From a virus, in the IMG/VR virus record IMGVR_UViG_3300025237_000001, positions 1 through 64,000 of that record: a DNA stretch of 64,000 nt. One strand, written 5' to 3'. The notes under the pieces were generated by a model. The model made no database searches. It was not told where the DNA came from and saw only the letters and a program-made list of their open reading frames with translations. Below are positions 4,449-42,811 of the stretch, one piece after another (the first letter of the stretch is position 1; every line of letters begins with the position of its first letter). The translations under genes were made by a program, and so were the position numbers.

Positions 4449-4805
4449 ATGGCAACTAAATTAATAAAAAATATCGTTAGGGAATCCACGGAAGTTATTG
4501 ATGGGAAAGAGATTACGATAACCTTAACGTCAGACCAAAAGATTGAATTGAAATTAAAAGGTAAAAGGGGTAGTGGTGAGACTATTTATATTAAAGATTT
4601 ATATAATCAGTTATATGGTCTTGAAGGAAGTGATGGTGATAAAAAGAAGGGTGTTGTAAGTATTTCTAATACTCCGAAGAAGCGTGGTGGTGGTAAGATG
4701 ATATCTTTAAGTGATTTAAGAAGTCACAATGCTATATCGATGTTAGATATTCCTACGTTAGCTAAATTCGACCAGATAATAAAGAGTGTAATAGATAGTC
4801 CATGA
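4449..4805 (+). CDS. hypothetical protein, 118 aa
   Basis: The product is basic in the middle (KKKGVVSISNTPKKRGGGK) and otherwise polar. The sequence suggests a strand-rich N-terminal part, a flexible basic linker and a C-terminal helix. A nucleic-acid-binding role is possible but unproven. It overlaps the next start by 4 nt. Confidence 0.5.
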   Translation: MATKLIKNIVRESTEVIDGKEITITLTSDQKIELKLKGKRGSGETIYIKDLYNQLYGLEGSDGDKKKGVVSISNTPKKRGGGKMISLSDLRSHNAISMLDIPTLAKFDQIIKSVIDSP

Positions 4806-8464: not shown

Positions 8465-8476
8465 AGTTTACAACCA

Positions 8477-8484
8477 TATTTATA
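8477..8484 (+). promoter_or_regulatory. TATTTAT(A/T) box
   Basis: TATTTATA lies between the thioredoxin terminator and the ATG at 8488, only 3 nt before the start. This is the terminator-box-ATG layout seen repeatedly in the window. Confidence 0.5.
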
Positions 8485-8487
8485 GAT

Positions 8488-8823
8488 ATGAATAAAAAAT
8501 TAATCATAAATAAGAGACAATTGGGGCTGATTAAAAATCACGTCAATGAGACTACTGCTAACGTCAGGTTAAGAAATAAGATACAAGATTTCTTAGAAGC
8601 TGATTATAAGCCGAGTGGTGGTGTTGAGCGTATGGGTAATGAATTTTACACTAAAGCGTTCATTGAGAAAAAGATTGATAAGGAAATGATTACACCGAAA
8701 GCATTGTATGATTATCTTCAACATAAATTTGTTGGGGTTGATAAAGCTACGCTTAAAGATTGTATAGAAGGTTGGTATTCGGGTGATTATAATAGAGAAA
8801 CTGGTATGAGAAAACGAAAATAA
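8488..8823 (+). CDS. hypothetical protein with VNE tag, candidate virion cargo
   Basis: The basic 111-residue protein has an N-terminal helix with IINKRQLGLIKN followed by HVNET at residues 18-22. V-N-E matches the T4-type prohead-protease site pattern ([I/L/V]-x-E) and the LNE site inferred in the capsid protein of this phage. The gene is a single transcription unit between two terminators with a TATTTATA box. I infer possible packaging into the capsid; the function of the remaining domain is unknown. Confidence 0.55.
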   Translation: MNKKLIINKRQLGLIKNHVNETTANVRLRNKIQDFLEADYKPSGGVERMGNEFYTKAFIEKKIDKEMITPKALYDYLQHKFVGVDKATLKDCIEGWYSGDYNRETGMRKRK

Positions 8824-11443: not shown

Positions 11444-11659
11444 ATGAACAATAAAAAAAATAAAGTAGTACAAGTTAACGAAGCAATCTTGGTTGATTTA
11501 ATTAATGAAATAGTTGAAAAGACTATTGCTGAAAGAAACTTAATCCAAGGTCCTATTCTTAAAAAGACACCTAGAAAACTTACCGTAACAGAATCTCAAT
11601 TAAGAAAACTACAAGCTAGTGGTGCTAAAATTAATAGCATCGTTAAGAAAAGTAAGTAA
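11444..11659 (+). CDS. basic 71-aa protein with VNE tag, candidate virion cargo
   Basis: The very basic protein starts with a Lys/Asn-rich stretch and QVNEA at residues 10-14, which fits the [I/L/V]-N-E cleavage-type tag of this phage. It also carries TVTESQLRKLQ (about residues 46-56), reminiscent of INKRQLGLIK in the tagged protein at 8488. It is preceded by the terminator-box-ATG layout. Small basic packaged proteins are known in T4 (internal proteins); the analogy is inference. Confidence 0.55.
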   Translation: MNNKKNKVVQVNEAILVDLINEIVEKTIAERNLIQGPILKKTPRKLTVTESQLRKLQASGAKINSIVKKSK

Positions 11660-17538: not shown

Positions 17539-18018
17539 TTAATGACCTCTACTTAGAATTAAGTATTCAGGTGATATTCTATTGAACCCTAATTTGTTCC
17601 AGAAGCTAATACCTTCGGGTTTTGGAGCAACAATTAAATCGTTGGTTTCTTTAAACATTCCCCAAAGTGATTTAACAGCTTCGTTAAGAATAAATACTGT
17701 TTCGTAATCTTTTTTAAATTTAACACCTACTATTTCTAGGGTATTATCAGCGTTAGCTTCTGCAATCATGATAATACCAGCGTTTCTATCGTTATATTCT
17801 ACCAATATCGATATTGTATCTGGTGATTCATCAGTTATTTGTAAGTTTATTTCTTCTCTAAGAAATCTTTTTATGATGTTTTTATTTTCTGTTATATTTT
17901 TTGGTGAGTTAACATGTCCACATTCATGACAAGTAAATAAATCATCACCTCCATCTTTGACTTCCCAAGACCATTCGCAATTAGCGCAATTAACTTTAGG
18001 TTCTTTAGTATCTTTCAT
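17539..18018 (-). CDS. zinc ribbon + tag + GNAT-like protein
   Basis: An N-terminal zinc ribbon (CANC about residues 11-14 and CHEC about 30-33, with a WSW and DGGDD between) resembles a module found at the start of assorted phage proteins. Then comes IIKRFLREEIN (about 48-58), which aligns with IIKRLLNEGLN of the neighbouring ART-like protein. The rest reads like an acetyltransferase and ends SFWNKLGFNRIS, typical of GNAT C-termini. I infer a packaged or late enzyme; the substrate is unknown. Confidence 0.55.
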   Translation of the reverse strand: MKDTKEPKVNCANCEWSWEVKDGGDDLFTCHECGHVNSPKNITENKNIIKRFLREEINLQITDESPDTISILVEYNDRNAGIIMIAEANADNTLEIVGVKFKKDYETVFILNEAVKSLWGMFKETNDLIVAPKPEGISFWNKLGFNRISPEYLILSRGH

Positions 18019-18691
18019 TATTCATTATTTTTATATTTTTAGGGTCGAATACCATTCTAACCGTTGATTTAACGTTACCACCTTCGTAAGCATCTAAAAC
18101 ACCTACAACGTCAATATAATCAAAACCAAACCACTCACCTATTACAGCAACCACATCAGTTTTCAATCCTTTATCGTTATTTTGATAATAACTAAATTGT
18201 TTTATTGCCTTGTTGACATCATCTTCTGGGACACCAGCACTAACAAAACCTCTTATTACTTTATTAACATCAATAAACCTAAATCTATCACCAGTTGCTA
18301 CAATTGTAACTACCTTACCATCGTTAAGATGGGTCGTTAATACCTTTTCTTCAGCACCTTGATAATCCATTGACCTTCTAGGGTTTGCATATGTTTTAGC
18401 GATGCTTCTAACATTGGTTAAAAATACTGGTTTTCTCATTTTAAATTGAGCTTTCAGTTTAGGTACTAAATCTAAATATCTAAAATACGCATCTTCATCA
18501 CCACTTTCTCTACTTACTTTAATTTTATTTTGTAATTCGTAATACTGAGTTAAGTCGCTGATATAGTCTACAGAAATAGTTCTAGACGAAAACCCACCTT
18601 CTTTTTCTAAATTTCTAACATCAGGTGTCCCATGATACCAAACATTATTTAAACCTTCGTTTAATAATCTTTTAATAATCTTTTTACTCAT
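18005..18691 (-). CDS. ADP-ribosyltransferase-like protein with LNE tag
   Basis: The N-terminus MSKKIIKRLLNEG carries L-N-E-G at residues 10-13, the same site type as the inferred maturation site of the capsid protein. After it, VWYHGTPDV and PVFLTNVRSIAKTYA are spaced like the H-G and A-x-x-Y elements of PARP/ART-fold enzymes. The key glutamate is not securely placed. T4 packages an ADP-ribosyltransferase (Alt) and injects it with DNA, so an analogous role is attractive. The gene follows a terminator and a TATTTATT box. Confidence 0.5.
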   Translation of the reverse strand: MSKKIIKRLLNEGLNNVWYHGTPDVRNLEKEGGFSSRTISVDYISDLTQYYELQNKIKVSRESGDEDAYFRYLDLVPKLKAQFKMRKPVFLTNVRSIAKTYANPRRSMDYQGAEEKVLTTHLNDGKVVTIVATGDRFRFIDVNKVIRGFVSAGVPEDDVNKAIKQFSYYQNNDKGLKTDVVAVIGEWFGFDYIDVVGVLDAYEGGNVKSTVRMVFDPKNIKIMNNERY

Positions 18692-18694: not shown

Positions 18695-18702
18695 AATAAA
18701 TA
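18695..18702 (-). promoter_or_regulatory. TATTTAT(A/T) box (minus)
   Basis: TATTTATT on the minus strand lies between the clpC terminator and the ATG at 18691. Confidence 0.5.
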
Positions 18703-18703
18703 T

Positions 18704-18731: not shown

Positions 18732-21218
18732 TTAATTGGTTACTTTAGTAGTAATCCCATCCTTAGTATTGTAGGATAGTTTTATAGTTCCACCCTCTTT
18801 TAGTTTACCATCCATGACGGCATCCGTGATAGGGTCTTCAACATATTTCTGTATCGCTCTCTTAAGAGGTCTAGCACCATATTCTTTATGGTAACCTTCT
18901 TTAGCAATGAAATCCATCGCTGATTTATTTACGACCATCTTGTAATTTAATTCAAGGATGCGTTCTTTAACCTCTTTGATTTCATTCTTGATAATTACGT
19001 TGAGATTTTCTTGTGTTAAAGGGTTAAAAATGATAGTTTCATCAATTCTATTCAAGAATTCTGGTTTGAATTTATCCTTAAGTGCTTTTTGTATAATACT
19101 TTTAGCCCTTTCCTCTTCATCAATAGAGGTGTTGTTACTTCCGTATCCAATACCTCTACCAAATTGTGATAATTCTTTCACACCTATGTTAGAAGTCATA
19201 ATAATTAAAGCGTTTTTAAAGTCCACTTTTCTATCATTACTATCAGTTAAATGACCTTCATCTAATACTTGAAGTAAAAGGTTGAAAACATCTGGATGTG
19301 CCTTTTCAATTTCATCAAAAAGAATAACTGAATAAGGGTTTCTTCGTACAGCCTCAGTGAGTTTACCACCTTCTCCGTAACCGACATAACCTGGAGGTGC
19401 TCCCACCAATTTAGACATCGAGAATTTCTCCATGTATTCGGACATATCCATTCTTATTAGTGAATCATCATTATCAAATACGTGCTTAGCAAGTGTTTTA
19501 GTAACGAATGTTTTACCTACACCAGTTGGTCCAAGGAATATAAAGGACCCAATTGGTTTATTACTATTTCTAATCCCTAATCTACTTCTTCTAATTGCTT
19601 TAGAGATTTGTTTAACCGCTTCGTCTTGACCAATAATTTCCTTTTTAAGTTCTGCTTCAAGATTTTTAAGTGAGTTATTCTCTGTTGTTGTAACTTTGGT
19701 TAACGGAATACCAGTCATAGTTGAAATAACCTTCTCAACAATCTCTTCTGTAATTATAGTTTTGTCTTTAAGATTACTATCTTCCCATTTCTCCATCATT
19801 TCTTCCAACTTAGCTTCAAATTCTTTACGTTTATCACGCATCATTGCCGCATCTTCGAAATCTTGTTTGTTTATGATTTCCTTCATTTGGTCTTTAAGAG
19901 CTTGAATTTTAATTTTCAGTTCTTTGATTTGCACTGGTAACTTGATATCAATATTTGTTGATGCACCAGCTTCATCTAGGATGTCAATGGCTTTGTCAGG
20001 CATCGCTCTATCAGAGATGTAACGATTTGCTAACTTAACAATGTATTCAACTACGTTATCGTCATAACTTACATTATGATATTTCTCGTAGTTTACTTTA
20101 ATATTTTTAAGAATTGTAACGGTTTCGTCTAAACTTGGTTCTTTTATCAATACTTGTTGGAAACGTCTAGTTAATGCACCATCGGTTTCAATATTTTCTC
20201 TAAATTCATCAAGAGTAGTTGCTCCAATTATTTGTATCTCACCTCTCGCTAATGCTGGTTTGAATATATTGGATGCGTCTAATGAACCTGATGCGTTACC
20301 CGCACCTACAAGTGTATGTAGTTCATCGATAAACAGAATTACATCTTGATTATCTTTTAATTCACTTAAGATAACTTTCATACGCTCTTCAAATTGTCCT
20401 CTGTACTTTGTTCCAGCTACGATTGAAGCTAAATCCAATGAGAATATTCTTTTTCCTAATAGAGGTCTAGGTGCGTCACCAGTATTTATCAAAGTTGCTA
20501 GACCTTCAATGATTGAAGTCTTTCCAACTCCTGGTTCTCCAATCAGTACTGGGTTGTTTTTCTTACGTCTCGATAGGATTGCAGTAACTCGTCTTATTTC
20601 ATCTTCACGACCTACTACTGGGTCGATTTTACCTTCCAATGCTGCTTTTGAGATATCTCTACAAAAACCGTCTAAGGCTGGTGTTTTAGAAGCGTTAGCT
20701 TTAGAAGTAGCACGCTTTTTAGGTTTTAATGGTTGTGTACTTTCATATTCATCTTCGGGTGTCATATCCATATCGTTATCGTTTTCTGCCATAAGCTTTG
20801 TTTTAAATATTTTATAGTTTATTTTTAGTTCTACGAGCATTTTTTGTGCCACACATTTGGTTTTTAAGATACCTAACATGATATGTGCTTCACTAATAGT
20901 ATCATCTCCCATTCCACTACATTCTTTTTGCATTTCTTCAATTACAAATTTAGTGTCGGAACTTGGTAAAATCTCTTCTTTAGTGAGGTACGCTCTATTA
21001 TTGTTGATTATATTTTGTGTTAAGTGAGTTGTCAATTTTTCAAATAAAGCATCTACATCAAAGTTCAAGTTTCGTAGAATTTTAACGATACTGTTGTGTT
21101 CGTGCATAATGATTGACAGTAATATATGTTCAGGTCTGAACTTATTGTCTTCATAGTCTTTTGCTTGGTAAATTGCTTTTTTCATCAGCTCACTGGCTGT
21201 CGGTGTCAATTCCATCAT
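18732..21218 (-). CDS. clpC: ClpC/ClpA-type AAA+ protein unfoldase
   Basis: A full-length 828-residue Clp ATPase. It has Clp N-terminal repeats (about residues 1-145), a first AAA domain with GEPGVGKT (227-234), and a middle region with a UVR-like motif INKQDFEDAAMMRD (about 445-460). A second AAA domain has GPTGVGKT (about 560-568) and a C-terminal small domain with GARPLKRAIQ. ClpC unfolds proteins for ClpP. A phage copy may degrade or remodel host or phage proteins; no ClpP gene is seen here. A consensus minus promoter precedes it. Full-length Clp ATPases are unusual in phages. Confidence 0.93.
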   Translation of the reverse strand: MMELTPTASELMKKAIYQAKDYEDNKFRPEHILLSIIMHEHNSIVKILRNLNFDVDALFEKLTTHLTQNIINNNRAYLTKEEILPSSDTKFVIEEMQKECSGMGDDTISEAHIMLGILKTKCVAQKMLVELKINYKIFKTKLMAENDNDMDMTPEDEYESTQPLKPKKRATSKANASKTPALDGFCRDISKAALEGKIDPVVGREDEIRRVTAILSRRKKNNPVLIGEPGVGKTSIIEGLATLINTGDAPRPLLGKRIFSLDLASIVAGTKYRGQFEERMKVILSELKDNQDVILFIDELHTLVGAGNASGSLDASNIFKPALARGEIQIIGATTLDEFRENIETDGALTRRFQQVLIKEPSLDETVTILKNIKVNYEKYHNVSYDDNVVEYIVKLANRYISDRAMPDKAIDILDEAGASTNIDIKLPVQIKELKIKIQALKDQMKEIINKQDFEDAAMMRDKRKEFEAKLEEMMEKWEDSNLKDKTIITEEIVEKVISTMTGIPLTKVTTTENNSLKNLEAELKKEIIGQDEAVKQISKAIRRSRLGIRNSNKPIGSFIFLGPTGVGKTFVTKTLAKHVFDNDDSLIRMDMSEYMEKFSMSKLVGAPPGYVGYGEGGKLTEAVRRNPYSVILFDEIEKAHPDVFNLLLQVLDEGHLTDSNDRKVDFKNALIIMTSNIGVKELSQFGRGIGYGSNNTSIDEEERAKSIIQKALKDKFKPEFLNRIDETIIFNPLTQENLNVIIKNEIKEVKERILELNYKMVVNKSAMDFIAKEGYHKEYGARPLKRAIQKYVEDPITDAVMDGKLKEGGTIKLSYNTKDGITTKVTN

Positions 21219-21331: not shown

Positions 21332-21763
21332 ATGATTTTAAAAAGAACTGTAAATGAGGGAGTTGTAAAAGGACTTTACGACTCAACAAACATTTTGGCA
21401 TCAGAGTATGACCAAACAACTAATAACTTAACCGTAGTATTTAAAAATGGTGGGAAATATAAGTATAATGGAGTGATTATGAAAGACTTCACTAGATTTG
21501 AATTAGCTGATAGCCAAGGAAAAATATTAAATACTCATATTAAAAATAATTATGAGTTTGAAGCTTTGGGTAAAATTGATACTAAAGACATACTTGAAAG
21601 TGTTGCGCTTTTAGAAAAAGATTCGCTTCAAGAATTTGCTGAGGTTGTTAGAGCTAAGGCATTAGACCTAATTGCTGAGGTTGATTCTAACTTAGAGTTA
21701 TCTGATAAAAGAATTGACGAACTAGAATCTGCACTTGCGGTTTACAAAAGTAAAAGAAAATAA
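21332..21763 (+). CDS. KTSC-domain protein with VNE tag
   Basis: Residues 17-65 match the KTSC domain (YDSTNILASEYD, LTVVFKNGGKYKYNGV, ADSQGKILNTHIKN), a small domain of unclear function common in phage and bacterial proteins. A helical C-terminal region follows. The N-terminus MILKRTVNEG has V-N-E-G at residues 7-10, the candidate capsid-protease tag. Its stop overlaps the glutamine synthetase start (TAATG), so the two are coupled. Confidence 0.75.
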   Translation: MILKRTVNEGVVKGLYDSTNILASEYDQTTNNLTVVFKNGGKYKYNGVIMKDFTRFELADSQGKILNTHIKNNYEFEALGKIDTKDILESVALLEKDSLQEFAEVVRAKALDLIAEVDSNLELSDKRIDELESALAVYKSKRK

Positions 21764-22899
21764 TGGGAACAAGAAAAGTTTTTTTGGAGTATATCTGGCT
21801 TGACGGCTCGGAACCCCAACAATTAAGAAGTAAGACAAAAGTAGTGGAAGAAATTCCAACTACTGTACATACTTTATCTAACTGGTCATTTGATGGTTCA
21901 TCAACAGACCAAGCAAAAGCTGGCAAGGGCGAAAATACAGATTGTATGCTCAAGCCAGTTTTTATGGTTAATGACCCCTTTAGAGGTCATGACCATAAGT
22001 TAGTTTTATGTGAAGTGTTTAATCCTGATGGAGTTACACCACATAAAACTAATCATAGGTTTGCATTAAATGAATTTACACGGAAGCCTAAAATAGATAT
22101 TAATGAAAAGATAATAAAATATAAACACTTACCTTGGTTTGGTTGGGAACAAGAATATACCCTGACTCGTAAGACTAAACGTTGGGAACGTGGTGAAGGA
22201 TTACCTTTAGGTTTTAAAGAACCTGAAGTTGAACGAGTTTTAATTGATGGTGAAAAATTAGCATCAAGGATAAATAATGGTGAACCAAGACCTCAAGGAG
22301 ATTACTATTGTGGTGTGGGTGCTGATAATATTGCTGGACGTTCAATAGCCGAAGAACATTTACGTATTTGTGCTGATATAGGAATTGTTATTTCTGGAAT
22401 CAATGCTGAAGTAATGTTAGGTCAATGGGAATATCAAATAGGACCTGTTACTTCGTTAGGTGGTTCTGACCAATTATGGATGTCTAGATATCTTCTTCAA
22501 CGAATAGCTGAAAGAAAAACTGTTAAAGTTTCTTTACACCCAAAACCTAAAAGTGGTGATTGGAATGGCTCAGGTTGTCATGTTAATGTTTCGACTAAAC
22601 AAACAAGAAAAAAAGGTGGTTTAAAAGTCATTGAAGATTTAATGCCACGTTTAGAAACTTTACATAATGAACATATGGACGTATATGGGTTATCTAACGA
22701 TGAGAGACTAACTGGAGACCATGAAACATCAACGATTCACGACTTTAGTTTTGGATATAGTACTAGAGATACTAGTATTAGAATTCCATTACAATCTAAA
22801 ATTGATGGAAAGGGTTATTTTGAAGATAGAAGACCAGCTTCAAATTGTGACCCGTACTTAGTAACACTTAGAATGCTTAAAACAATATACGATGTCTAA
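21763..22899 (+). CDS. glnII: glutamine synthetase, type II (GSII)
   Basis: A complete GSII-type enzyme of 378 residues, making glutamine from glutamate, ammonia and ATP. The motifs run in order: FLEYIWLDG, NWSFDGSSTDQA, DPFR with LVLCEVF, WFGWEQEYTL, INAEVMLGQWEYQIGP, GSGCHVNVSTK, DERLTGDHETSTIHDFSFG and GYFEDRRPASNCDPY. These include the metal and substrate residues of the family, and nothing is truncated. GSII occurs in eukaryotes and some bacteria; phage copies are rare. It sits upstream of thymidylate synthase, so supplying amide nitrogen for nucleotide synthesis during infection is a reasonable inference. Confidence 0.93.
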   Translation: MGTRKVFLEYIWLDGSEPQQLRSKTKVVEEIPTTVHTLSNWSFDGSSTDQAKAGKGENTDCMLKPVFMVNDPFRGHDHKLVLCEVFNPDGVTPHKTNHRFALNEFTRKPKIDINEKIIKYKHLPWFGWEQEYTLTRKTKRWERGEGLPLGFKEPEVERVLIDGEKLASRINNGEPRPQGDYYCGVGADNIAGRSIAEEHLRICADIGIVISGINAEVMLGQWEYQIGPVTSLGGSDQLWMSRYLLQRIAERKTVKVSLHPKPKSGDWNGSGCHVNVSTKQTRKKGGLKVIEDLMPRLETLHNEHMDVYGLSNDERLTGDHETSTIHDFSFGYSTRDTSIRIPLQSKIDGKGYFEDRRPASNCDPYLVTLRMLKTIYDV

Positions 22900-25993: not shown

Positions 25994-26749
25994 ATGAAAA
26001 ATAAGAACAATATTAAACCTACAGGATTAAAAGGTAACGACCAATTAAGTAGAATGAAAAGCTTAATGGGTGTAGCATCTATTACTGAAAACACAAAAAC
26101 TTCGGTTGTGGAATTAACTAAAACAGGTCCTGATGGAAAGGTATATGGTATCGTTAGAGAGAACCATAAATATTTCATTAAAATAACTAACAAAAAACAA
26201 AATTTAATTGCTGAGGACTTCAGATATATGGGTGGGTTGCAAAACAAAACCGAAAAATCTTATGATAGTTACTCTCAAGCAACTAAACAATTAAATCTTA
26301 AATTCTTAAGCTTAAATGAAGCGTTAGATAAAACTGAGCAAATCAATGTTTTACAAAACGATAATTTATTAGCTGAATCTTTTGATTCTTATTCTGAAAA
26401 ACCAAAGAAAAGTCAACCAGACTCTACTTTAGGAACTGTTAAAGAAATAGGAAAAAACGATGGTCATGAAGAAGAAATCATTGCAGATACTGGTGAAACT
26501 GGTAACCCTGATGTGAAAACTCCACCAGTTGTTGAAGAAGATGAAGATGTAAACGAAGATACTGATGAAATAACTGAAGAAGAAGTTGTTGAAGAAGAGG
26601 ATGTCGTAGAATTAACTGAAAACGAAAAAGCTATTGATAACATCATTCGTGAACTTAAAGCAGAAACTTTAAACGAAAACAAACCAAGCATTACTACAGC
26701 GATACACAAAATCAAAGAGGGAGAAGAAAGCTCAAAAAAAAAAGTGTAA
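25994..26749 (+). CDS. acidic virion-module protein, zero-frame part
   Basis: The 251-residue N-terminal product has a basic start, a soluble domain (about residues 25-110) and an acidic Glu/Asp/Val-rich tail. It ends in a run of ten A residues followed immediately by a stop. The next frame (-1) continues for 467 residues with similar acidic composition and no plausible start of its own near the junction. I read both as one gene that is frameshifted. SITEN (about residues 35-39) could be a protease site. Function: probable head or core protein. Confidence 0.6.
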   Translation: MKNKNNIKPTGLKGNDQLSRMKSLMGVASITENTKTSVVELTKTGPDGKVYGIVRENHKYFIKITNKKQNLIAEDFRYMGGLQNKTEKSYDSYSQATKQLNLKFLSLNEALDKTEQINVLQNDNLLAESFDSYSEKPKKSQPDSTLGTVKEIGKNDGHEEEIIADTGETGNPDVKTPPVVEEDEDVNEDTDEITEEEVVEEEDVVELTENEKAIDNIIRELKAETLNENKPSITTAIHKIKEGEESSKKKV

Positions 26750-26812
26750 CTGAAACTAAATTTAAACTTAAATTAGATAACCCATCTCCTGAGCAACCTC
26801 AAGAAATGGGTT
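26718..26812 (+). promoter_or_regulatory. candidate -1 frameshift site on an A-run
   Basis: An AGGGAG Shine-Dalgarno-like stretch (26718-26723) precedes about ten A residues (26734-26743) that provide A AAA AAA in the zero frame, directly before the TAA stop. An AACCCAT/ATGGGTT stem lies at 26779-26812. The set recalls the dnaX type of signal, but the stem is far from the slip site. A homopolymer length error would give the same picture. Confidence 0.45.
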
Positions 26813-28146
26813 CTCCTGTTTCTGGTGGAGAAGAATTTGGTGGTGAAGAAGACTTTGGTGGCGGTGAAGTAGAAGACTTTGGCGGTGGTGAAGCTTCAAG
26901 TGAAAAACCATTTGATGAAGAACCATTTGACGCTGGTGTAGAAGCTAGTGAAGATGATAGCCCAGAAAAATACATACAACAAATATCAGGTAAGTTAGGT
27001 CAAAGCCTAAGAAAATATACTGACGAAATGGGGCAACCAGATTTCGACTTAGAAAAGTTTGCAATCAATTCTGTATTATCCGCAACCAACTCTGGTAAAA
27101 TGGATAGTGGAGACCAATCCGATATAATTCAAAAAGTTAAATCGTCATCTACTGATGGTAGTGGTGGTAATGGTGTAGACCATAATGACGGAGCTAATGA
27201 CGGAGCTGATGACGGAGCTGAAGATTTAGATACATCTGATGAAGGTGGTTTGGATTTAAGTAATATCGACATGGAAGAAAGTGTTAACCCTAGTGGTTGT
27301 TTTCCTCAACCAATTGTTGATAGACAAATAGAGAATATTAAAAAAGAAAGTGTAATAACTAAAGAACCTGTATCTAAAGAATTTGTAGGTAAAAAAGTTA
27401 GTGTAGATTTTAGAAAAGAAATTGGAATTGTTAAGGATTATGACGATAAAGAAGTTGTTATCCATTTCCCAGATTTAGGATTTACTGAAAAAATTAATTA
27501 TAAAATGGTTGAAGTATTATTTCAGGAAGATGGTCAAGTTGACGAAGCTTTCAACCCTAACCCAAATGGTAAGACTGTGTTTCAAGATGCCGCTTTAGGT
27601 GTTAAGGAAGATGGTATGGAAGAGAATAAATATTTAAACTTGGAAAGCACTAAGAAAAGTAGTATAATTGCAACTAAACTAAGAAATATGTTACAGGAAA
27701 AAGAAATCATTACTATTGGTGGGCAAGTTTATGACCCTAAAACAAAACCACAAGTACAGCCACAAGTAAAACCTGAAAGAAAAACTAGAAGAGGTAAACC
27801 TTATAGGATTATCCCTGAGCAATTACCTGACCCAAAGCCAAAAGCTGAAAAAAAAAATGATAGCGTAAGTTTTATTAAAGATTCTGGGTTTGCACGAGAT
27901 GGTAATTCAGTAACAATCAAATTTGACATTAATGGTGAAAGGTTTGTATCTAATTTTGTGAATACTGGTGAGTTATTAGTGAAACCAGAAGCTTATGATG
28001 AGTCATGGGTTTATGCATTTGAATCAGAGGTTTTATCAAACGGTAAATCATATAGTGTAGCCGTAGCATTTTTCGGTCACCCAGATACTAATCTTGAGGT
28101 AGAAGAATATGCTGATGGTTCAGTACCAGATATAGAAGAAGTATAA
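26743..28146 (+). CDS. acidic virion-module protein, -1 frame part
   Basis: Continuous open frame from the A-run onward (SVTETKFKLKLDNPS, then Gly/Glu-rich FGGEEDFGGGE). The first ATG is only at 26806. It contains low-complexity acidic stretches, a tandem DGA repeat, a possible SH3-like segment (about 27380-27520), and a beta-rich C-terminal domain. Similar acidic composition on both sides of the junction supports a single product of about 717 residues. No family is recognised; a prohead-core or neck-associated role is a guess from position. Confidence 0.6.
   Translation, partial: SVTETKFKLKLDNPSPEQPQEMGSPVSGGEEFGGEEDFGGGEVEDFGGGEASSEKPFDEEPFDAGVEASEDDSPEKYIQQISGKLGQSLRKYTDEMGQPDFDLEKFAINSVLSATNSGKMDSGDQSDIIQKVKSSSTDGSGGNGVDHNDGANDGADDGAEDLDTSDEGGLDLSNIDMEESVNPSGCFPQPIVDRQIENIKKESVITKEPVSKEFVGKKVSVDFRKEIGIVKDYDDKEVVIHFPDLGFTEKINYKMVEVLFQEDGQVDEAFNPNPNGKTVFQDAALGVKEDGMEENKYLNLESTKKSSIIATKLRNMLQEKEIITIGGQVYDPKTKPQVQPQVKPERKTRRGKPYRIIPEQLPDPKPKAEKKNDSVSFIKDSGFARDGNSVTIKFDINGERFVSNFVNTGELLVKPEAYDESWVYAFESEVLSNGKSYSVAVAFFGHPDTNLEVEEYADGSVPDIEEV
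27184..27219 (+). repeat. three tandem 12-bp repeats
   Basis: Three copies of (A/G)ATGACGGAGCT encode NDGA/DDGA units in the acidic protein. They are in-frame and probably slippage-prone. Confidence 0.8.
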
Positions 28147-28551: not shown

Positions 28552-29016
28552 ATGAACAGTGAAAATTATAGAATTGTATTAAGCAATGCGTATAAGAATA
28601 GAGAGTTAACTCCTGAAGACTTTGATAATACATTAAATCATTACACAATGTTAGTTAAAAAAGAAGGTGGTATAACTGAAGAAGATACTGGAACGGAATA
28701 CGGTGTTGAGAGTGATGAATTTGATAAGGTGATGCCTGTTGTGGGACCACGTTTAGAAGATGGTGACACAGTAAACATCTCTGCAAATGAATCTACTATA
28801 AAGGAAGATGATGAAGATACTTCCGAAGTTGATTCATTATATTCTGGTGCCGATGATAGAGGTGTTGAATACGGGATGAAGAATGAGGATTTTGATAAGT
28901 TAATGGAAGAACTTAAAGAAAGTGGAGGTCCGAGTATTAAAGTTAATGAAAATAGAACTATTAATGCTAAAATCAAGAAAGGTGATTTAATAAATTATAT
29001 TAAAAACAAAAAATAA
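28552..29016 (+). CDS. acidic protein with internal repeat, 154 aa
   Basis: Two similar segments, TEYGVESDEFDKVM (about residues 47-60) and VEYGMKNEDFDKLM (about 104-117), indicate an internal duplication separated by an acidic linker. ANES and VNEN are possible maturation sites. It lies next to the terminase block; a virion or core role is inferred only from position. Confidence 0.55.
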   Translation: MNSENYRIVLSNAYKNRELTPEDFDNTLNHYTMLVKKEGGITEEDTGTEYGVESDEFDKVMPVVGPRLEDGDTVNISANESTIKEDDEDTSEVDSLYSGADDRGVEYGMKNEDFDKLMEELKESGGPSIKVNENRTINAKIKKGDLINYIKNKK

Positions 29017-34321: not shown

Positions 34322-35101
34322 ATGCAAAATTTTGGACAGATAAACGAAACCTTTAAAAATATTTTAGTAGATAGTATCATTACTAAAGACGAAAAAGGTA
34401 AAAAGGTATTTAAGAGTTATGTTAAAGCTCTTAAAGAGAATTCTACTTTAAGAACTCAATACGATATATTTAGTAAATTAGAAAATAAAGTTAACGAAGA
34501 AAATGAAGGTGAACGTAATGAAATGTTCATTACAGAATGCATTTCATTATTAGAAAATGTTGGTAGCGATACAGTAGATAAGGTTAACAATAAATTAGTT
34601 AAACACTTAACCAAAAACGGGTATGAGTTATACGCTGGTGACTATGAGTTAAAATCATTACACGAGCATATTACCAATGCCGCATACTTGGAAAGAAATA
34701 CTAAAAACGTTAACACTGTTATTGAATCTAAATTATTTCTTAAAAATTATTCAAAAGTACTTGTTGAATCTGAAGATATTGAAGTTGAACCTTATTCTAA
34801 TAAAATGTTAATTCCTTTATTAGAAAGAAAATTCAATGACAAATACGCAAACATCTCTGAACTTGAAAAGAAAGTGATTAGATTAAGTATTAATAGCACT
34901 GATGAGGCGAAAGAAGAATTATACAACGGCACGATTCGTGAATGCATAGATTTAGTAGATTCTCAGTTAACTGAGTGTACTATTGAGCAAAAGAATACTC
35001 TATTGCAAGTAAAAGATAAATTATTAAGAAGTAAATTCAGCACAGATGGTTTTACATCTGAAATGAGTAAAATTAGTTACCTAAAAACAACATTAAATTA
35101 A
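34322..35101 (+). CDS. probable prohead-core protein, 259 aa
   Basis: A helical, charged protein with I-N-E-T at residues 7-10, matching the maturation-type tag. It occupies the position of the T4 prohead-core genes (67/68) between portal and protease. Several charged helices suggest a core or scaffold component. No direct homology can be claimed. Confidence 0.5.
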   Translation: MQNFGQINETFKNILVDSIITKDEKGKKVFKSYVKALKENSTLRTQYDIFSKLENKVNEENEGERNEMFITECISLLENVGSDTVDKVNNKLVKHLTKNGYELYAGDYELKSLHEHITNAAYLERNTKNVNTVIESKLFLKNYSKVLVESEDIEVEPYSNKMLIPLLERKFNDKYANISELEKKVIRLSINSTDEAKEELYNGTIRECIDLVDSQLTECTIEQKNTLLQVKDKLLRSKFSTDGFTSEMSKISYLKTTLN

Positions 35102-36476: not shown

Positions 36477-36489
36477 GTGTTTATTCGCA

Positions 36490-36497
36490 TATTTATT
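36490..36497 (+). promoter_or_regulatory. TATTTAT(A/T) box before the protease
   Basis: TATTTATT lies between the terminator and the protease ATG at 36511. Confidence 0.5.
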
Positions 36498-36510: not shown

Positions 36511-37200
36511 ATGAACGAATTTAAAGTTATAAGAGGTGGTAGAGCTGGAACTGGATTATTAATTGAAGGTGATGCTGGTTTTATCGAACCAAATGATATT
36601 AGGAACAAGCCATTTGTTACTGAAGCTGCTAAGATAGGCAAAGGTACTGTAATGATTGAACCATTAATCCTATTCGTTGTGTTACAAAAATTTGGTGTAG
36701 AGAACAAGAACGGTAGAATCTATCCAGAACACATTTTAAAAAGAGAAGCTGTTAATTATCAAGAGTTAATTAACAATAGGTCAGCAGTTGGGGAAAGTGA
36801 CCACCCTGAATCATCAGTTATTTCAAACAGTAGAGTTTCACATGAAATCAAAAAGATTTGGTGGGAAGGTCGCACGCTTGTTGGTGAAATAGAAATCATT
36901 ATGTCTCCAGGTTTTATTAATCAAGGAATCATATCTTGTGAGGGTGATAACATTGCAAACATGTTAAGAAAAGGAATACGTGTGGGAGTATCTTCAAGAG
37001 GTGTTGGTTCACTGGATGAAATTGCTGGTAAATTATTAGTGCAAGAAGATTTTGAATTAATATGTTGGGATATCGTTACGAGTCCTAGTACTCCAGGTTC
37101 TTATATGTTCAATAGTAAGTCTGAGGCACAACCATTTATGGAGTCTGAGATAAAGGGGAAAGACCTATTAATCGACAATTTAAATAAATTTTTATTATAA
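36511..37200 (+). CDS. prohead core protease (gp21-like)
   Basis: A 229-residue serine protease of the T4 gp21/herpesvirus assemblin-like class. It contains NGRIYPEHIL, the catalytic His region VGESDHPESS (about residues 92-101) and the catalytic Ser region RVGVSSRGVGSL (about 155-166). It matures the capsid by cleaving scaffold, core and capsid proteins, usually after a glutamate in [I/L]-x-E sites. The ATG at 36511 is preferred to an earlier one that overlaps the terminator. Its products here probably include the LNE site of the capsid protein. Confidence 0.9.
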   Translation: MNEFKVIRGGRAGTGLLIEGDAGFIEPNDIRNKPFVTEAAKIGKGTVMIEPLILFVVLQKFGVENKNGRIYPEHILKREAVNYQELINNRSAVGESDHPESSVISNSRVSHEIKKIWWEGRTLVGEIEIIMSPGFINQGIISCEGDNIANMLRKGIRVGVSSRGVGSLDEIAGKLLVQEDFELICWDIVTSPSTPGSYMFNSKSEAQPFMESEIKGKDLLIDNLNKFLL

Positions 37201-37334: not shown

Positions 37335-39032
37335 ATGAAAGACGAAAAAAAGTCTATTATAGAAGAAGCACTAGCGGAATTTAACCTTATCGAGGAAACA
37401 TTAAATTCGAATGCTAAAGAAATACTTCGTTCCGTAGCGAAAGAAGAAATTACTAGCACGCTAAACGAGTCCTTGAATGAGGATGAGTATGATATTGAAG
37501 ATATCGAAGACGTTGACACTGATACAGATGTTGACGCATTACCAATAGATGACGCACCAGATGCAGCACCAGAAATGGGAGCTGAAATGGGTCCAGAACC
37601 AGAAATGGGAATGGAACCTGATTTAGGTGGTTCTGAAGAACTTGGATTAGATGACATGGGAATGGACGCTGGAGAAGAAGGACTAGAAATAGAACTTGGA
37701 GCAGAAGAAGGTAGCGAAGACTACGGATTGGACATGACTGGAGCATCAGACGAGGAAGTTATATCAGTTTACAAGAAATTGCAAGGTGAAGACGAAATAG
37801 AAGTAGTATCATCAGAAGAAGTAATAATTAAAGACCCAGTATCGGGAGCAGAGTACAACGTCAAAATGGGCGGTGGTAGTATGCTAGACCAAGGGGAAAT
37901 GGACGCAGAAGGTGGACTAGGAGCAGAAATGGGACTAGACGCTGAACCAGAAATGGGACCAGAAATGGGTGCGGAACTTGGACCAGAGGTTGAAGCTGAA
38001 CCAGCAATGGATACAGAAGTAGACGCTGAACCAGCACCAGATTTTGGTGGAGGTGAAGAAGAAACTGAAGTTGCACCAGAAGGTGGAGAAGCAGAAGAAA
38101 CTGAGGAAGAAGAAGATGAAATAGGTGAAGCAGTTGTTTATGAAATTGAATTATCGGAAGATGATGAAATTGTAGAAGGTTTAGAAAATGACCTTAAGAT
38201 AAACAAAGATAGCAAAATTGGTGCTACCGCAGACGGTAAGCCAAGAACTGCTACTAGTGATGTTGAAAAAAACATGACTGGCGATTTAGCTACTGGCGAT
38301 ATCGAAGGACAAAAAGCTCCAAATGATTCTGATTCAGGTGATAATCTTACAGGTGGATTTGACGATGATGCTCAAAACGGAAGTGGCGACAATCATGCGG
38401 CTCACATCATGGAAGATGCTGAAGTAGTTGATGAAAACGAAAACATTGATGAAACGGTAGAAGTTGTGGACGAAGAAGAAGTTGTAGAAGGAGAAGATGC
38501 TATTGACGAAAAGATTTCAACCAACGGTGCTCGTGAGAGACAAGCTGGTGGAGATTTAACTAAAATTAAAGGTCCAGGGGCAAGGCAAACTGCTAAGAAC
38601 CTAGGTCACACAGTTGAAAGCGTATCTAAAAAATACAACACTTTATTAAAAGAAGCGAAAGCTCTTAAAGTTGAGAACGTAGCGTTCAAATCATCTTTAA
38701 AAGATTTTAAAAGAACCATGACTGAGACAGCGATATTTAATATCAACCTAACTCACGCTACTAAATTATTCTTAGAACACTCTACTACTATTGGAGAGAA
38801 GAAAGATATTTTAACTAGATTTGATGAAGAGGTTAGTACAATCGAAGAGTCTAAAAAACTTTACAAACGAATCAATTCTGAATTAGGAAATCAAAAACCT
38901 CTTGCTGAATCGATTGAAAATAAATTAATGTCTGAGCAAACATCAGGTCAATCAACTCAAATTAACGAGACGGTTGCTTATGTAGACCCAGCACAAAAAA
39001 GAGTTCTTGATTTAATCAATAGAACTAAATAA
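37335..39032 (+). CDS. prohead scaffold/core protein (gp22-like)
   Basis: A highly acidic 565-residue protein between the protease and capsid genes, the position of T4 gp22. Residues about 60-260 are low-complexity repeats of Glu/Met/Gly/Pro (PEMG, AEMG). The C-terminal third is helical and charged, as in scaffold cores, and ends KRVLDLINRTK. Several I/L-x-E sites (LAEF, LNES, LAES, INET) would allow degradation by the prohead protease. It is much longer than T4 gp22 (269 residues). The ATG at 37335 avoids a longer frame lacking support. Confidence 0.8.
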   Translation: MKDEKKSIIEEALAEFNLIEETLNSNAKEILRSVAKEEITSTLNESLNEDEYDIEDIEDVDTDTDVDALPIDDAPDAAPEMGAEMGPEPEMGMEPDLGGSEELGLDDMGMDAGEEGLEIELGAEEGSEDYGLDMTGASDEEVISVYKKLQGEDEIEVVSSEEVIIKDPVSGAEYNVKMGGGSMLDQGEMDAEGGLGAEMGLDAEPEMGPEMGAELGPEVEAEPAMDTEVDAEPAPDFGGGEEETEVAPEGGEAEETEEEEDEIGEAVVYEIELSEDDEIVEGLENDLKINKDSKIGATADGKPRTATSDVEKNMTGDLATGDIEGQKAPNDSDSGDNLTGGFDDDAQNGSGDNHAAHIMEDAEVVDENENIDETVEVVDEEEVVEGEDAIDEKISTNGARERQAGGDLTKIKGPGARQTAKNLGHTVESVSKKYNTLLKEAKALKVENVAFKSSLKDFKRTMTETAIFNINLTHATKLFLEHSTTIGEKKDILTRFDEEVSTIEESKKLYKRINSELGNQKPLAESIENKLMSEQTSGQSTQINETVAYVDPAQKRVLDLINRTK

Positions 39033-39062: not shown

Positions 39063-40865
39063 ATGAATAGCAATTTTTTAACTTCAGGTCAAGTTGGTAA
39101 CATCGGACTTAACCACATGAAACAAGTAAGAGAGAACACTATCAATAAATGGGATTCATTAGGATTCTTAGATGGTCTTCAAGGACATGTAAAAGAGAAT
39201 ATCGCTCAGTTATATGAAAACGAAGCTTCTCACTTATTAAACGAATCAACTGATGCTTCAAGCTCAGGTTCATTCGAAACGGTTGTATTTCCAATCGTAA
39301 GGAGAGTATTCTCTAAATTATTAGCAAATGATATTGTATCAGTACAAGCTATGAATATGCCAATTGGTAAATTATTCTTCTTCGTACCACAAACATCTGC
39401 AAGATATGACGCTGCTGGTGATGCATACGGAGACCCACATAAAAATGGACCTCAGTTTTCTGCTCACACTTCAATGGGTGCTGATGGACTACCAATCGTA
39501 AGAGGTGTAGACCCATCTTATGCTCCAACTGAGTATTTAGCTAAAAATCTTTATGATATTTACTATAACGATGGATTATTTGATGCATCTAAAGGTACTA
39601 TCTCAATTATTGCGGGAACAGGTAACTTAGTTACTTTATCTGCTGACGGTACATTCGCTGCCGCTGCTGATTTCTCTGCACTTCCAACTTCAACTGATGG
39701 TTCTTTAAGAACTGCCATTTTCCAAGTATCTGGATTTAGTGCAATAAACAAAGGTAGATTAAGTGGACCAGATGGTAACCCAATGGACACAGAATCTTTC
39801 TTAGCTTCTTTAAAAGTTGTTACCAATGGTATCGCTTTAAATGATGCTGACGGAAACGTAATTGTTGCTGACGCTACAATCGTTCCTTTTAGATTAGTTA
39901 CTCAAAAATACGGTAGAGGTATCGTAGATTATAGTGACATATGTGACGCTGCTGGTGTTATCTATCTTGAATTAGATATGACTCACCCAGTTGACGCTGC
40001 TGGAACTTCAACATACGATGGTTATGTTGGTGCAGATATGGGCGGTGCTCAATCAGCATTTACAAGTGCTGATTTCTCAGTATCTTGGGCAGAATATGCT
40101 ACGTTAGAACTTGAAACAGAAATGGGTGAAGTATCTTTCAAATTAGACGAGGTTGTTGTTTCCGTTGAAGAACGTAAATTAAGAGCTACATGGTCTCCAG
40201 AATTAGCTCAAGATGTTAGTGCATTCCACAACATTGATGCTGAGGCTGAATTAACTGCAATGTTATCAGAACAAGTTGCTGCTGAAATCGATAGAGAAAT
40301 CTTAAGAGACATCAGAAGTGCTGCTGCATGGCAATTAAGATGGGATTGGAACGGATGGAGAAAAGCTTCATTGGCTGCTAATGCTTACACGCAAAAAGAC
40401 TGGAATCAAACTTTAATTACTAAAGTTAACCAAATTTCAGCACAAATCCACAAGTCTACTCTTAGAGGTGGTGCTAACTTTATCGTAGTTTCTTCAGAAA
40501 TTTCTGCTGTATTCGATGATTTAGAGTACTTCCACGTAAGTGATGCATCTCCAGAGCAAGACCAATATAATATGGGTATCGAGAAAATCGGTTCATTAAG
40601 TGGTCGTTACCAAGTGTACCGTGACCCTTATGCACCATCTTGGTCACTTATTATGGGACATAAAGGAAAATCATTGTTAGACACTGGTTACATCTACGCA
40701 CCTTACGTGCCAATGCAATTAACGCCTACAATGTATAACCCATTCAACTTCGCACCAGTGAAAGGTATAATGACACGTTATGCTAAGAAAGTGGTAAACA
40801 ACAGATTCTACGGAGCTGTAAGAGTTGATGGATTACAAACATTCAACATCGCTGAATTAAGATAA
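39063..40865 (+). CDS. major capsid protein (gp23-like)
   Basis: A 600-residue T4-type capsid protein. The N-terminal region (residues 1-61) ends in HLLNE and is followed by STDASSSGSFE, then PIVRRVFSKLLANDIVSVQAMNMPIGKLFFF, the family landmark. By analogy with T4 gp23, cleavage after E61 (L-N-E/S) would release the propeptide. The region from about 145 to 350 is a longer domain than in T4 and may be a surface insertion. The conserved end (TRYAKKVVNNRFYGAVRV) is present. It is the last gene before a strong terminator. Confidence 0.93.
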   Translation: MNSNFLTSGQVGNIGLNHMKQVRENTINKWDSLGFLDGLQGHVKENIAQLYENEASHLLNESTDASSSGSFETVVFPIVRRVFSKLLANDIVSVQAMNMPIGKLFFFVPQTSARYDAAGDAYGDPHKNGPQFSAHTSMGADGLPIVRGVDPSYAPTEYLAKNLYDIYYNDGLFDASKGTISIIAGTGNLVTLSADGTFAAAADFSALPTSTDGSLRTAIFQVSGFSAINKGRLSGPDGNPMDTESFLASLKVVTNGIALNDADGNVIVADATIVPFRLVTQKYGRGIVDYSDICDAAGVIYLELDMTHPVDAAGTSTYDGYVGADMGGAQSAFTSADFSVSWAEYATLELETEMGEVSFKLDEVVVSVEERKLRATWSPELAQDVSAFHNIDAEAELTAMLSEQVAAEIDREILRDIRSAAAWQLRWDWNGWRKASLAANAYTQKDWNQTLITKVNQISAQIHKSTLRGGANFIVVSSEISAVFDDLEYFHVSDASPEQDQYNMGIEKIGSLSGRYQVYRDPYAPSWSLIMGHKGKSLLDTGYIYAPYVPMQLTPTMYNPFNFAPVKGIMTRYAKKVVNNRFYGAVRVDGLQTFNIAELR

Positions 40866-40932: not shown

Positions 40933-40942
40933 TTTTATAGAC

Positions 40943-40950
40943 TATTTATA
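40943..40950 (+). promoter_or_regulatory. TATTTAT(A/T) box
   Basis: TATTTATA lies between the capsid terminator and the ATG at 40953, only 2 nt before the start. Confidence 0.5.
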
Positions 40951-40952: not shown

Positions 40953-41810
40953 ATGAACTTATATAACTTATATGAAGAAGTTTTAAAAGAAGATTGTGAG
41001 AAAATATCTCTCGTAAGTAAATCCAAGAAAGGTAATCGTTATTTTAAAATGCTTAAAGATGCGCAATGGCAACATTATGACGCACCTAAAGGTGACCTAA
41101 CTGATTACGTTAGTGGGGAAGATGATAGAAAACGTCTAGTTACTAATTTAAGTAAAGCTGATAAGAAACTTTATAGAGAATGGTTAAAAACACCAGAAGG
41201 TGAAACATCGGTAAAATTATTTGCTGATAAGCAAACTAAATTTAAAGAAAGGACTAAAGGTTGGGGTGAAGGACCTATTTCTGAATCAACTGATAGAATG
41301 ATTGATGTATCATGTGCTGCTTTAGGTAGTATTAAAATTGATGGTAAATATTTATTATTTAAAGAAAAAATGAAATACCAACCAATAGGTGGTGGTCTTA
41401 AATTTAAACCATCCGCAATTCCATTCTTAGAATCAATAAATTACCGTACAGCTAGAACTGATAATGATATTAGAATTCAAATACCCGAATCTAAATGGGA
41501 AATTTTTAAACAATGGTTCCAAAGTGGTAAAGATAGAGAAATATCAATTGATAGAGAAATGGAAGAAGAATTAGGTTCATTCCTAGACTCTTCATATCTT
41601 TCACAAATGAATACAAGTAACTATCAACTTAAAGAAGTAATTGAAGGTAAACATAGAATATTTCAAATACATCAAATTACGTTTTCAGATGAAGTTCGTA
41701 ATGCGATATTAGAATTAGTTCATCATAAACAATTATTTATATTGGCAACGCCAGAAGAAATGAAATCTTCTGATGAAATATCAAGCCACAGCCATAATAT
41801 CATATTATGA
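40953..41810 (+). CDS. Nudix-like protein with tag, candidate virion cargo
   Basis: The N-terminus MNLYNLYEEVLKED resembles the next gene product (MRLNTLYTQILNEG) and carries L-K-E at residues 11-13. A further I-S-E-S at 109-112 could separate a 111-residue N-terminal part from a Nudix-like domain. That domain shows YLLFKEKMKYQPIGGGLKF (about 127-145) and the box-like REMEEELGSF (about 199-208), with about 45 extra residues between and non-standard spacing. Nucleotide hydrolysis is therefore likely but not certain. It sits right after the capsid gene, and the coupled next gene is also tagged. Confidence 0.6.
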   Translation: MNLYNLYEEVLKEDCEKISLVSKSKKGNRYFKMLKDAQWQHYDAPKGDLTDYVSGEDDRKRLVTNLSKADKKLYREWLKTPEGETSVKLFADKQTKFKERTKGWGEGPISESTDRMIDVSCAALGSIKIDGKYLLFKEKMKYQPIGGGLKFKPSAIPFLESINYRTARTDNDIRIQIPESKWEIFKQWFQSGKDREISIDREMEEELGSFLDSSYLSQMNTSNYQLKEVIEGKHRIFQIHQITFSDEVRNAILELVHHKQLFILATPEEMKSSDEISSHSHNIIL

Positions 41811-42811
41811 GATTAAATACACTGTATACGCAAATATTAAACGAAGGAACAGGTTGTCCAGTTCTTAAAGTAACTAAACAGATTCAATCTGAGGTAATAA
41901 GATTTAAATCTGATGAAGATTTATTAAGAGGTGGTGGTATTTCAATAGAAGCTTTAGATAGAGCCGCACATGGCTTCTCTGAGGGTGATATTAAGACAAT
42001 ACACCCTAGTAAGTTATCCATTAAATGGAAAGAAGACCATGAAAATGTTATGTGGGAGATTAAAAAAAGTGGAATGAACATCACTCAATGGTCTAAACAG
42101 ATAAATTTAAATGAACCAATTGATGTTAGTTTTAAAAATGGTAAGTTTTTCATTGAAGATGGACATCATAGGTATGTTGCCGCTAAAACACTTAACGTTG
42201 AATTAAACTGTAATTTAGAAATTAAAGAAAATCCAATAAGGGTCTTAGCACCAACATTAGGATATGATGAATTTCATAGATGTCTTTATAAGCAAGTTTC
42301 ATCAGGAGTAAGTGAAATAGTGGAAGGTTCAAAGATTAAAACTAATCGAGGTTATTTAATTGATAACGGTGATAAATACACCAAATTAACTACCGATAAA
42401 ATAGAATATGAAAATGCCTTAAGATTAATTAATAACCCAAATAAACATTTCGTTAAATATTATTCAGCTAAACCTCATAATGAAAAATATTATGAGTTAG
42501 TCATGGATAAACTTAATCCATTAAGTGATAATGATTCTGATATCGTTGATATGATTCAACAAAGCTTAGGACTTCAAGAATATATGTTGGATAGTGCTAA
42601 ACGAAACTCAATAATAAACGAGTTTAAAAGAAACCCAGAATGGTATGAAGGGTTAGGTTCAATACAAGACGTTTTAAAGATTATTAATTCTATTTATCAA
42701 ATGTATTTATATGCCAAAAATAACACTTTTTCCTTATTTGATTTAAGGGCGCAAAATTTAGGTAGAACTAATGAGGGAATTTTAGTTCATTTCGATTTAG
42801 GTTCGGGTTAA
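41807..42811 (+). CDS. ParB/sulfiredoxin-like + kinase-like protein with LNE tag
   Basis: The N-terminus MRLNTLYTQILNEG carries L-N-E-G at residues 11-14. Residues about 95-140 (PIDVSFKNGKFFIEDGHHRYVAAKTLN) match the ParB/sulfiredoxin-like fold with DGHHR as nucleotide-binding centre. The C-terminus LFDLRAQNLGRTNEGILVHFDLGSG resembles a kinase catalytic D-x-x-x-x-N followed by a DFG-like DLG. A packaged kinase or nucleotidase acting on the host at injection is inferred. It overlaps the previous gene by 4 nt and ends overlapping a convergent gene. Confidence 0.6.
   Translation: MRLNTLYTQILNEGTGCPVLKVTKQIQSEVIRFKSDEDLLRGGGISIEALDRAAHGFSEGDIKTIHPSKLSIKWKEDHENVMWEIKKSGMNITQWSKQINLNEPIDVSFKNGKFFIEDGHHRYVAAKTLNVELNCNLEIKENPIRVLAPTLGYDEFHRCLYKQVSSGVSEIVEGSKIKTNRGYLIDNGDKYTKLTTDKIEYENALRLINNPNKHFVKYYSAKPHNEKYYELVMDKLNPLSDNDSDIVDMIQQSLGLQEYMLDSAKRNSIINEFKRNPEWYEGLGSIQDVLKIINSIYQMYLYAKNNTFSLFDLRAQNLGRTNEGILVHFDLGSG

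Follow-up and report, generated by a model that had tools for sequence, protein, structure and literature searches.

Short N-terminal tags resembling T4 capsid-targeting propeptides on diverse proteins of a T4-like phage lineage

Introduction

Which phage proteins are carried in the head and pass into the host is normally established virion by virion, using mass spectrometry. The closest described system is that of T4, in which the internal proteins IPI, IPII and IPIII and the packaged ADP-ribosyltransferase Alt bear a short N-terminal capsid-targeting peptide (CTS; Mullaney and Black, reviewed in PMC9026906). The T4 protease gp21 cuts after the motif L/I-X-E; in the IPIII peptide, residues 4 and 7 serve targeting and residues 8 and 10 serve processing, and an Asp at position 10 stops processing but not targeting (PMC9026906). 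The propeptide of T4 gp24, the vertex protein of the shell, is also removed by gp21 (PMC5694885). In phages phiKZ and SPN3US, head-packaged proteins, including two paralogues with identical N-termini, have an N-terminal propeptide that a gp21-like protease cleaves after Glu (PMC5694885).

Here we examine a virus record of 197,358 bases (197 kb; IMG/VR IMGVR_UViG_3300025237_000001), of which positions 1-64000 constitute the stretch analysed, hereafter the window. An initial annotation of the window had proposed that a motif [I/L/V]-N-E-[G/S/A/T], shared by the capsid protein and the N-termini of six other products, denotes protease-processed, capsid-packaged cargo for injection. We document the existence of a set of N-terminal tags, their excess, position, Glu requirement and modularity, their link to a T4-type head, and an upstream box that they share, and we consider it highly probable that they are capsid-targeting propeptides of the T4 type, which gp21 removes from a set of injected cargo proteins.

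As in the T4 CTS, each tag is a short N-terminal peptide with hydrophobic residues at P7, P4 and P3 of the predicted cut and Glu at P1; the genome encodes a gp21-type protease, the cargo is unrelated and includes ADP-ribosyltransferase-like proteins, and a variant with Asp at P1 occurs. The register of the tags matches that of T4 IPIII (MKTYQEFIAE/A) and gp24 (MAKINELLRE/S; T4 record), the latter having the same spacing (INELLRE/S versus IKKLLRE/[GNS] here), although gp24 is a shell protein and the peptide described here is found on enzymes. In contrast to the T4 system, both tag sequence classes defined below are absent in T4, the cargo is far larger and more varied, one class has a strict length of 11 residues, a box [AC]TATTTAT is shared, and the system is known here from sequence. 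The ejection-protein propeptides of phiKZ and SPN3US differ further, being mostly >100 residues long, with a cut motif [SAG]-X-E, in another phage lineage. The literature searched did not mention a KKLLRE peptide, nor did it include virion proteomics of Flavobacterium phage immuto, the annotated relative used for comparison below.

Results

A T4-type head module and its predicted cleavage sites

The window contains a T4-type head module in which gene order is as in T4 (Table 1; genes are designated by coordinate, and relatives by G and L numbers). Its gp21, presumed to be the enzyme that processes the tags, retains H98, S162 and D187, which are invariant in an alignment with the gp21 proteins of T4 and immuto. 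The scaffold has several LNE sites and an [LIV]xE density of 3.9 per 100 aa, versus 1.8 genome-wide. The gp23 cut site initially proposed, HLLNE/S at residues 57-62, was borne out (...ASHLLNE/STDASS, with HLLNE at residues 57-61 and S at 62): across 79 copies from relatives it reads [HSTYNVF][LI][LIM][NTSA]E/[SATGN], with Glu at P1 and Leu, Ile or Met at P3 in all matched copies, and with variants such as LLNE/S, LLTE/S, LLSE/S and ILTE/A. The nearest annotated gp23 genes, ~39-42% identical over aligned parts, belong to an uncultured phage, Microcystis phage Mel-JY01 and Flavobacterium immuto phages; this similarity, together with the immuto comparison, suggests a possible link of the phage to Flavobacterium phages.

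Orthologues of the prohead-core-like protein 34322 display [FY]xx[LI][LM]xE/[SAG] at residue 17 (LLVE/A, LMVE/G or LLSE/S), where this phage has FKNILVD/S, with Asp at P1. The INE-T originally read in this protein was off-register, and that register is rejected, but the gene does belong to a genuine site family.

In some relatives (L082:6666-8531; G028, G032, G039) the gp21 gene harbors an in-frame, intein-like insertion of ~370 residues, placed right after GELDHPE and beside the catalytic His. Upstream of the terminase gene of the window lies a run of acidic proteins (26806-28146, 25994-26749 and 28552-29016), which are possible extra prohead-core proteins; [LIV]xE sites number 7.2 per 100 residues in 25994 and 3.2 in 28552, against the genome mean of 1.8.

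Table 1. Predicted tags, head genes and promoter-like boxes. Coordinates are those of the window unless marked; a slash denotes the predicted cut.
Feature	Coordinates	Strand	Remarks
Class-1 tag MNLYNLYEEVLKE/D on NUDIX-domain protein 40953-41810	40953..40991	+	Sa_NUDIX, E 8e-21
Class-1 tag MRLNTLYTQILNE/G on predicted ParB/sulfiredoxin-fold protein 41807-42811	41807..41845	+	Homologues, AF2 model
Class-2 tag MSKKIIKRLLNE/G on ADP-ribosyltransferase-like protein 18005-18691	18656..18691	-	VWYHGT motif
Class-2 type tag, probable, MATKLIKNIVRE/S	4449..4484	+	LIRE/S, ITRE/S in two relatives
Class-1 tag MKLYNLYKDVIFE/E	gene 68586		Outside window
Class-1 tag MKLNKLFESVISE/A	gene 152816		Outside window
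Class-1 tag MKLNKLFEGVITD/G	gene 153862		Outside window; Asp at P1 (VITD/G)
Class-1 tag MIKLTNLLESVLNE/S	gene 154362		Outside window
Class-1 tag MNKLNRLYNVVLNE/N	gene 180989		Outside window
111-aa protein, h-x-E at residue 21 (VNE/T)	8488..8823	+	Site kept in 5 phages
71-aa protein, VNE/A at residue 13	11444..11659	+	INE/S in G009; site kept in 2 phages
Zn-ribbon + GNAT-like protein, internal IIKRFLREE	17539..18018	-
Terminase	30344		Identified by reading
Portal gp20	32268		PF07230, E 2e-77
Prohead-core-like protein, after portal	34322..35101	+	Site at residue 17
gp21 prohead protease, Peptidase S77	36511..37200	+	PF03420, E 2.7e-20; PHROG 207 head maturation protease, E 3e-36
gp22-like acidic scaffold	37335..39032	+	By position, between gp21 and gp23
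gp23 major capsid protein	39063-40865		Pfam Gp23, PF07068, E 2e-70
gp23 propeptide, codons 1-61, predicted cut HLLNE/S	39063..39245	+	Site kept in relatives
Promoter-like box CTATTTAT	40942..40949	+	11 nt before ATG of 40953
Promoter-like box ATATTTAT	18696..18703	-	12 nt before ATG of 18005
Promoter-like box ATATTTAT	36489..36496	+	22 nt before gp21

Excess of the motif near N-termini

The 242 genes of the 197 kb record were called with our own codon-usage method, from which the gene starts also derive. Within the first 22 residues, [ILV]NE[GSAT] occurs in 12 of the 242 genes, compared with 1.3±1.1 after shuffling and 1.9±1.1 in random internal windows; none of 1000 shuffles reached 12 (maximum 6), and the density of [ILV]NE has a 5.1-fold peak at residues 11-15. 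These expectations agree with the initial estimate of fewer than one chance motif across about 100 proteins, and the count against shuffles that had been suggested as a check reveals a real excess. Two independent relatives of ~362 kb show the same kind of positional excess, at residues 9-17, for a somewhat altered motif: [LIVF][LIVF][RNK]E and then one of G, A, S, N, D or E (13 versus 2.1 and 14 versus 2.4 expected). Looser definitions, for instance [ILVF]xE within 22-30 residues, brought little or no enrichment and were rejected. From the excess in this phage and in the two relatives, the observation is therefore real, yet the motif is not truly I/L/V-N-E.

To avoid fitting a motif to the genome being tested, we derived an independent rule solely from the propeptides of T4: [YFILM]xx[LIVF][LIVF]xE, the Glu lying at residues 9-17. 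Applied to T4, this rule recovers IPII, IPIII, gp24, Alt and gp61.1 among 9 matches (3.6 expected). It finds 14 matches in this phage versus 3.5 expected, 19 versus 6.4, 18 versus 7.8 and 7 versus 2.4 in the relatives G004, G001 and G007, and 13 versus 3.1 in immuto, whose proteins with such N-termini include MADNFNLRSFLTE/N, MENFDLKKFLVE/N and MKKSQLRQIIKE/A; in the relative G009, taken by itself, the result was not significant (5 versus 2.6). As controls we used two Bacteroidota phages with another head type: crAss001 showed no enrichment (0 versus 1.3), and phi14:2 a weak excess (4 versus 1.7, P 0.035) of matches that are without the basic class-2 look described next.

Two tag classes and their bearers

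Read together, the N-termini resolve into two tag classes, MKLxxL[YF]xx[VI][LI]xE (class 1) and MKxhIKKLLRE (class 2). In both, Glu at P1 is combined with hydrophobic residues at P3, P4 and P7, and this phage alone often has Asn at P2. Judged from these sequences, the true signature is an amphipathic peptide of 11-14 residues with this arrangement of Glu and hydrophobic residues. The originally proposed consensus did capture an excess, but was too loose, one of its six products being a chance match and another off-register. In relatives, class 2 is represented by MKEFIKKLLRE/G and dozens of further tags, many of them in genes immediately following gp23.

Comparison with related phages, also suggested at the outset, showed that several sites are kept in orthologues and that some are not. 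By this measure 41807 and 18005 (both LNE-G) bear true tags, as does 40953, which the initial annotation had termed merely similar. The sites of 8488 and 11444 are conserved without being canonical tags; that of 8488 is a plausible processing site, and that of 11444 a possible one. The VNE-G of 21332 is lost in 4/4 orthologues; it is for this reason attributed to chance, and 21332 is rejected as a tagged protein. The likeness to tags noted in 17539 reflects a tag-like stretch that exists but is internal rather than N-terminal. Its counterpart in G009 is fused behind an ART-like domain and has an internal LIIKKLIKEK, and because the stretch is mid-protein there, it may be a fusion relic or an internal cut site. 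Outside the window, where most of the best tags lie, strong ones at 68586, 152816, 154362 and 180989, and the same tag with Asp at P1 at 153862, had been missed. Since Asp at position 10 of the T4 peptide blocks processing only, 153862 (VITD/G) and 34322 (ILVD/S) are candidates for proteins that are targeted but uncut.

The neighbors 18005 (ART-like) and 17539, spanning 17539-18691 of the window, correspond to one fused protein of 468 aa in the close relative G009 (L128-L134; G009:42317-43723). In the commonest class-2-tagged cluster (20/123; L223, L224, L153, L239, L230) a Zn-ribbon, CxxCxWxW...CHxCGHDN, lies directly after the tag, unlike the ribbon of 17539, which precedes the tag-like stretch. 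Beside tagged 18005, two further proteins were identified by reading: one resembles glutamine synthetase (window 21763-22899), the other AAA+ proteins of the ClpA/ClpC kind (18732-21218).

Association with the S77 head system and an upstream box

An S77 protease is present in all seven searched tag-bearing records of at least 250 kb (7/7) and, counting fragments, in 27 of 47 tag-bearing contigs; the remaining 20, without a match, are presumably fragments. Among class-2-tagged genes, 69 of 125 have [AC]TATTTAT within 60 bases upstream, usually 12-14 bases before the ATG, versus 171 of 998 other genes at the same loci (P 6e-19), and the 12 nt spacing seen at 18005 recurs in 40 of the 125. The box also precedes gp21 (61/70) and the prohead-core gene of the 34322 family (49/49) in relatives, where it was found before gp23 in 0/79. 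In this phage it occurs at 5/5 heads of transcription units with a class-1 or class-2 style tag versus 44/115 other heads (P 0.01), and at 29/52 heads in the head and tail regions versus 18/63 elsewhere (P 0.004); we infer its timing from this association with structural genes. The late-type boxes of the initial annotation were thus present as [AC]TATTTAT and not as the T4 late promoter TATAAATA, which was rejected as the shared element, being found in 7/124 upstream regions.

The distance from box to start is just 11-14 bases at many genes (in the window 18696-18703 (-), 40942-40949 (+) and 8476-8483 (+), and in relatives), so that their mRNAs would have little or no leader.

Tags as modules and the nature of their payloads

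Homologous payloads carry different tag classes, and their homology begins right after the cut. Thus 41807 (class 1) is 52-54% identical overall to L054, L175 and L048 (class 2), and 180989 (class 1) is 69% identical from residue 20 to L241 (class 2); further tag swaps relate 154362 to L225, and 152816 to L249, L167 and L205. In L025, MKKLSNIYSQILKE/G is fused straight to the NUDIX domain of 40953 (76%), without residues 14-108, and the gene adjoins another that encodes an ART-like protein with an HGT motif behind the same tag. In G001, MKEFIAKLLRE/S is followed by nothing but the C-terminal domain of 152816, and a relative of 41807 has ~150 extra residues between tag and ParB-like domain; the G009 homologue of 18005 (42317, 65%) begins at the HGT domain, without a tag. 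An AlphaFold (AF2) model of 41807 places the tag (residues 1-14) in a low-confidence helix outside the confident domain (residues 20-170), for which it predicts a ParB/sulfiredoxin-type (ParB/Srx) fold; the model of 18005, with a pLDDT of 41, was set aside.

Most payloads had no match in a Pfam search. Among those that did, the NUDIX domain of 40953 is of the SMODS-associated type (Table 1), 180989 matches GP88 (E 2e-21), and 152816 matches ART-PolyVal (E 5.5e-10, 40.6 bits against a cut-off of 31.2), as do L215 and L225 above the cut-off; a sequence search of solved structures with 152816 returned marginal matches only. This ART domain of polyvalent proteins occurs here in stand-alone or one- to two-domain proteins behind a tag of 11-13 residues, and not in giant polyproteins. 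By their sequences, 153862 (ART-PolyVal 14.7 bits, below cut-off) and 18005 (no Pfam match) may be called only ART-like, and PHROGs show a weak likeness of 41807 and 154362 to ParB. Payloads of relatives include ART-PolyVal, GNAT, GP88 and pterin dehydratase above or near the cut-off, and a weak protein-kinase match, besides many proteins without a known function. Searches for relatives found none with 18005, and only the contig of L025 with 40953.

The payloads bear on whether the tagged proteins leave the head at all. The tags could be gp21-processed elements of head assembly whose bearers serve within the prohead or virion, in the core, in maturation or in protecting DNA, without ever reaching the host; the 34322 family of prohead-core genes has the same site and box, and 68586 is kept with its tag in four phages, as a structural gene would be. 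Most payloads are instead variable, non-conserved enzymes (ART, NUDIX, GNAT, GP88, ParB/Srx, pterin dehydratase), unlike assembly factors, and the T4 precedent for the same spacing consists of the injected Alt and internal proteins, so that we regard assembly roles without delivery as an improbable account of the set.

Requirement for Glu at the predicted cut

We scanned 2.9 million viral contigs of IMG/VR with a degenerate DNA pattern for MKxhIKKLLRE, retrieving 112 stretches, not all independent, as some contigs are related. The same pattern with scrambled codon order retrieved one stretch, and variants at P1 retrieved none with Asp and one with Lys. Only the third base distinguishes Glu from Asp codons; selection therefore acts on the amino acid, and the Glu selected at P1 is the residue that a gp21-type protease would need. 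Class-2 sites, 126 in number and encoded by 87 different DNA sequences, head 40 unrelated post-tag clusters (about 40 families). At the level of sequence, the tags combine the attributes expected of capsid targeting: a short N-terminal peptide of about 10-20 residues ending in L/I-X-E, Glu at P1, targeting and processing positions in register, an accompanying gp21-type protease with intact catalytic residues, and portability between unrelated proteins.

An amphipathic helix that directs proteins to the host membrane or to a phage compartment, unrelated to gp21, would also fit the helical pattern of the tag, and cleavage is itself deduced from sequence. Such helices, however, need no fixed Glu (112 stretches with Glu versus 0 with Asp and 1 with Lys), the end of the tag matches both the gp23 cut site and the LLRE/S of T4 gp24, and the tags track S77 head systems; we give this explanation very little weight. 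That the N-terminal likeness stems from a recombined DNA cassette (promoter plus first codons) or from AT-rich chance, with a functionless peptide, is scarcely credible: the box is indeed fixed at 12-14 nt before many tagged starts, so that cassette transfer may help the tag to spread, but one peptide is written in 87 DNA sequences among 126 sites, class-1 and class-2 tags swap on the same payload, the Glu/Asp codon test hinges on the third base alone, and shuffles give far fewer motifs (1.3 versus 12).

Discussion

We return to the reading that we prefer, in which the tags are T4-type capsid-targeting propeptides. The N-terminal amphipathic peptide of 11-14 residues, in either of two interchangeable classes, would bind the prohead core during assembly, and the S77 protease gp21 would cut after its terminal Glu, likewise in gp23 and the scaffold, as the matching sites and the absolute preference for Glu suggest. 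The payload would then remain in the head and be delivered with the DNA at infection, as happens with Alt and the internal proteins in T4. Most payloads would be enzymes suited to host takeover or counter-defence (ADP-ribosyltransferase-like, NUDIX, GNAT, ParB/Srx-fold, GP88), and many are of unknown function. Protease-processed capsid-targeting peptides on a cargo set, as the initial annotation envisaged, are strongly supported by the T4-only rule, the Glu scan, the tag swaps and the box shared with gp21, while we infer targeting, cleavage, packaging and injection from T4.

Tags common to many relatives would represent one removable label on many unrelated proteins, closely matching the T4 label, and the recurrent ADP-ribosyltransferase payload may parallel Alt, which T4 packages (PMC9026906). 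With less assurance, we lean toward a broader interpretation: that a T4-like lineage related to Flavobacterium phages marks a very large set of injected effectors, from dozens of unrelated families mostly of unknown function, with an interchangeable capsid-targeting code that can be read from the genome; that effectors are shuffled behind the tag as a counter-defence platform; and that even a GIY-YIG nuclease has apparently been given the gp23 propeptide for the same purpose. If this is so, the injected proteins of a large T4-like lineage could be listed from sequence alone; one exact pattern yields about 40 families, most without known function, several of which (ART, NUDIX, GNAT) are typical of conflict with host defence. 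Proteins could also be loaded into such heads with the tags as ready-made targeting peptides, and one could examine directly how far the T4 CTS mechanism reaches beyond the T4 relatives in which it was worked out.

The GIY-YIG protein has 160 aa (G000:C1:175157-175639, L008:13657-14139; PF01541, E 1e-18), and its residues 24-51 closely copy the gp23 propeptide (KWVNLGFLDGLKGHIKPNIAELYESEAS; DNA 81% identical over 73 bases). Its homologue in G001 begins directly at the GIY-YIG domain. Compared in this way, the nuclease appears to have been given the gp23 propeptide, perhaps for targeting to the head.
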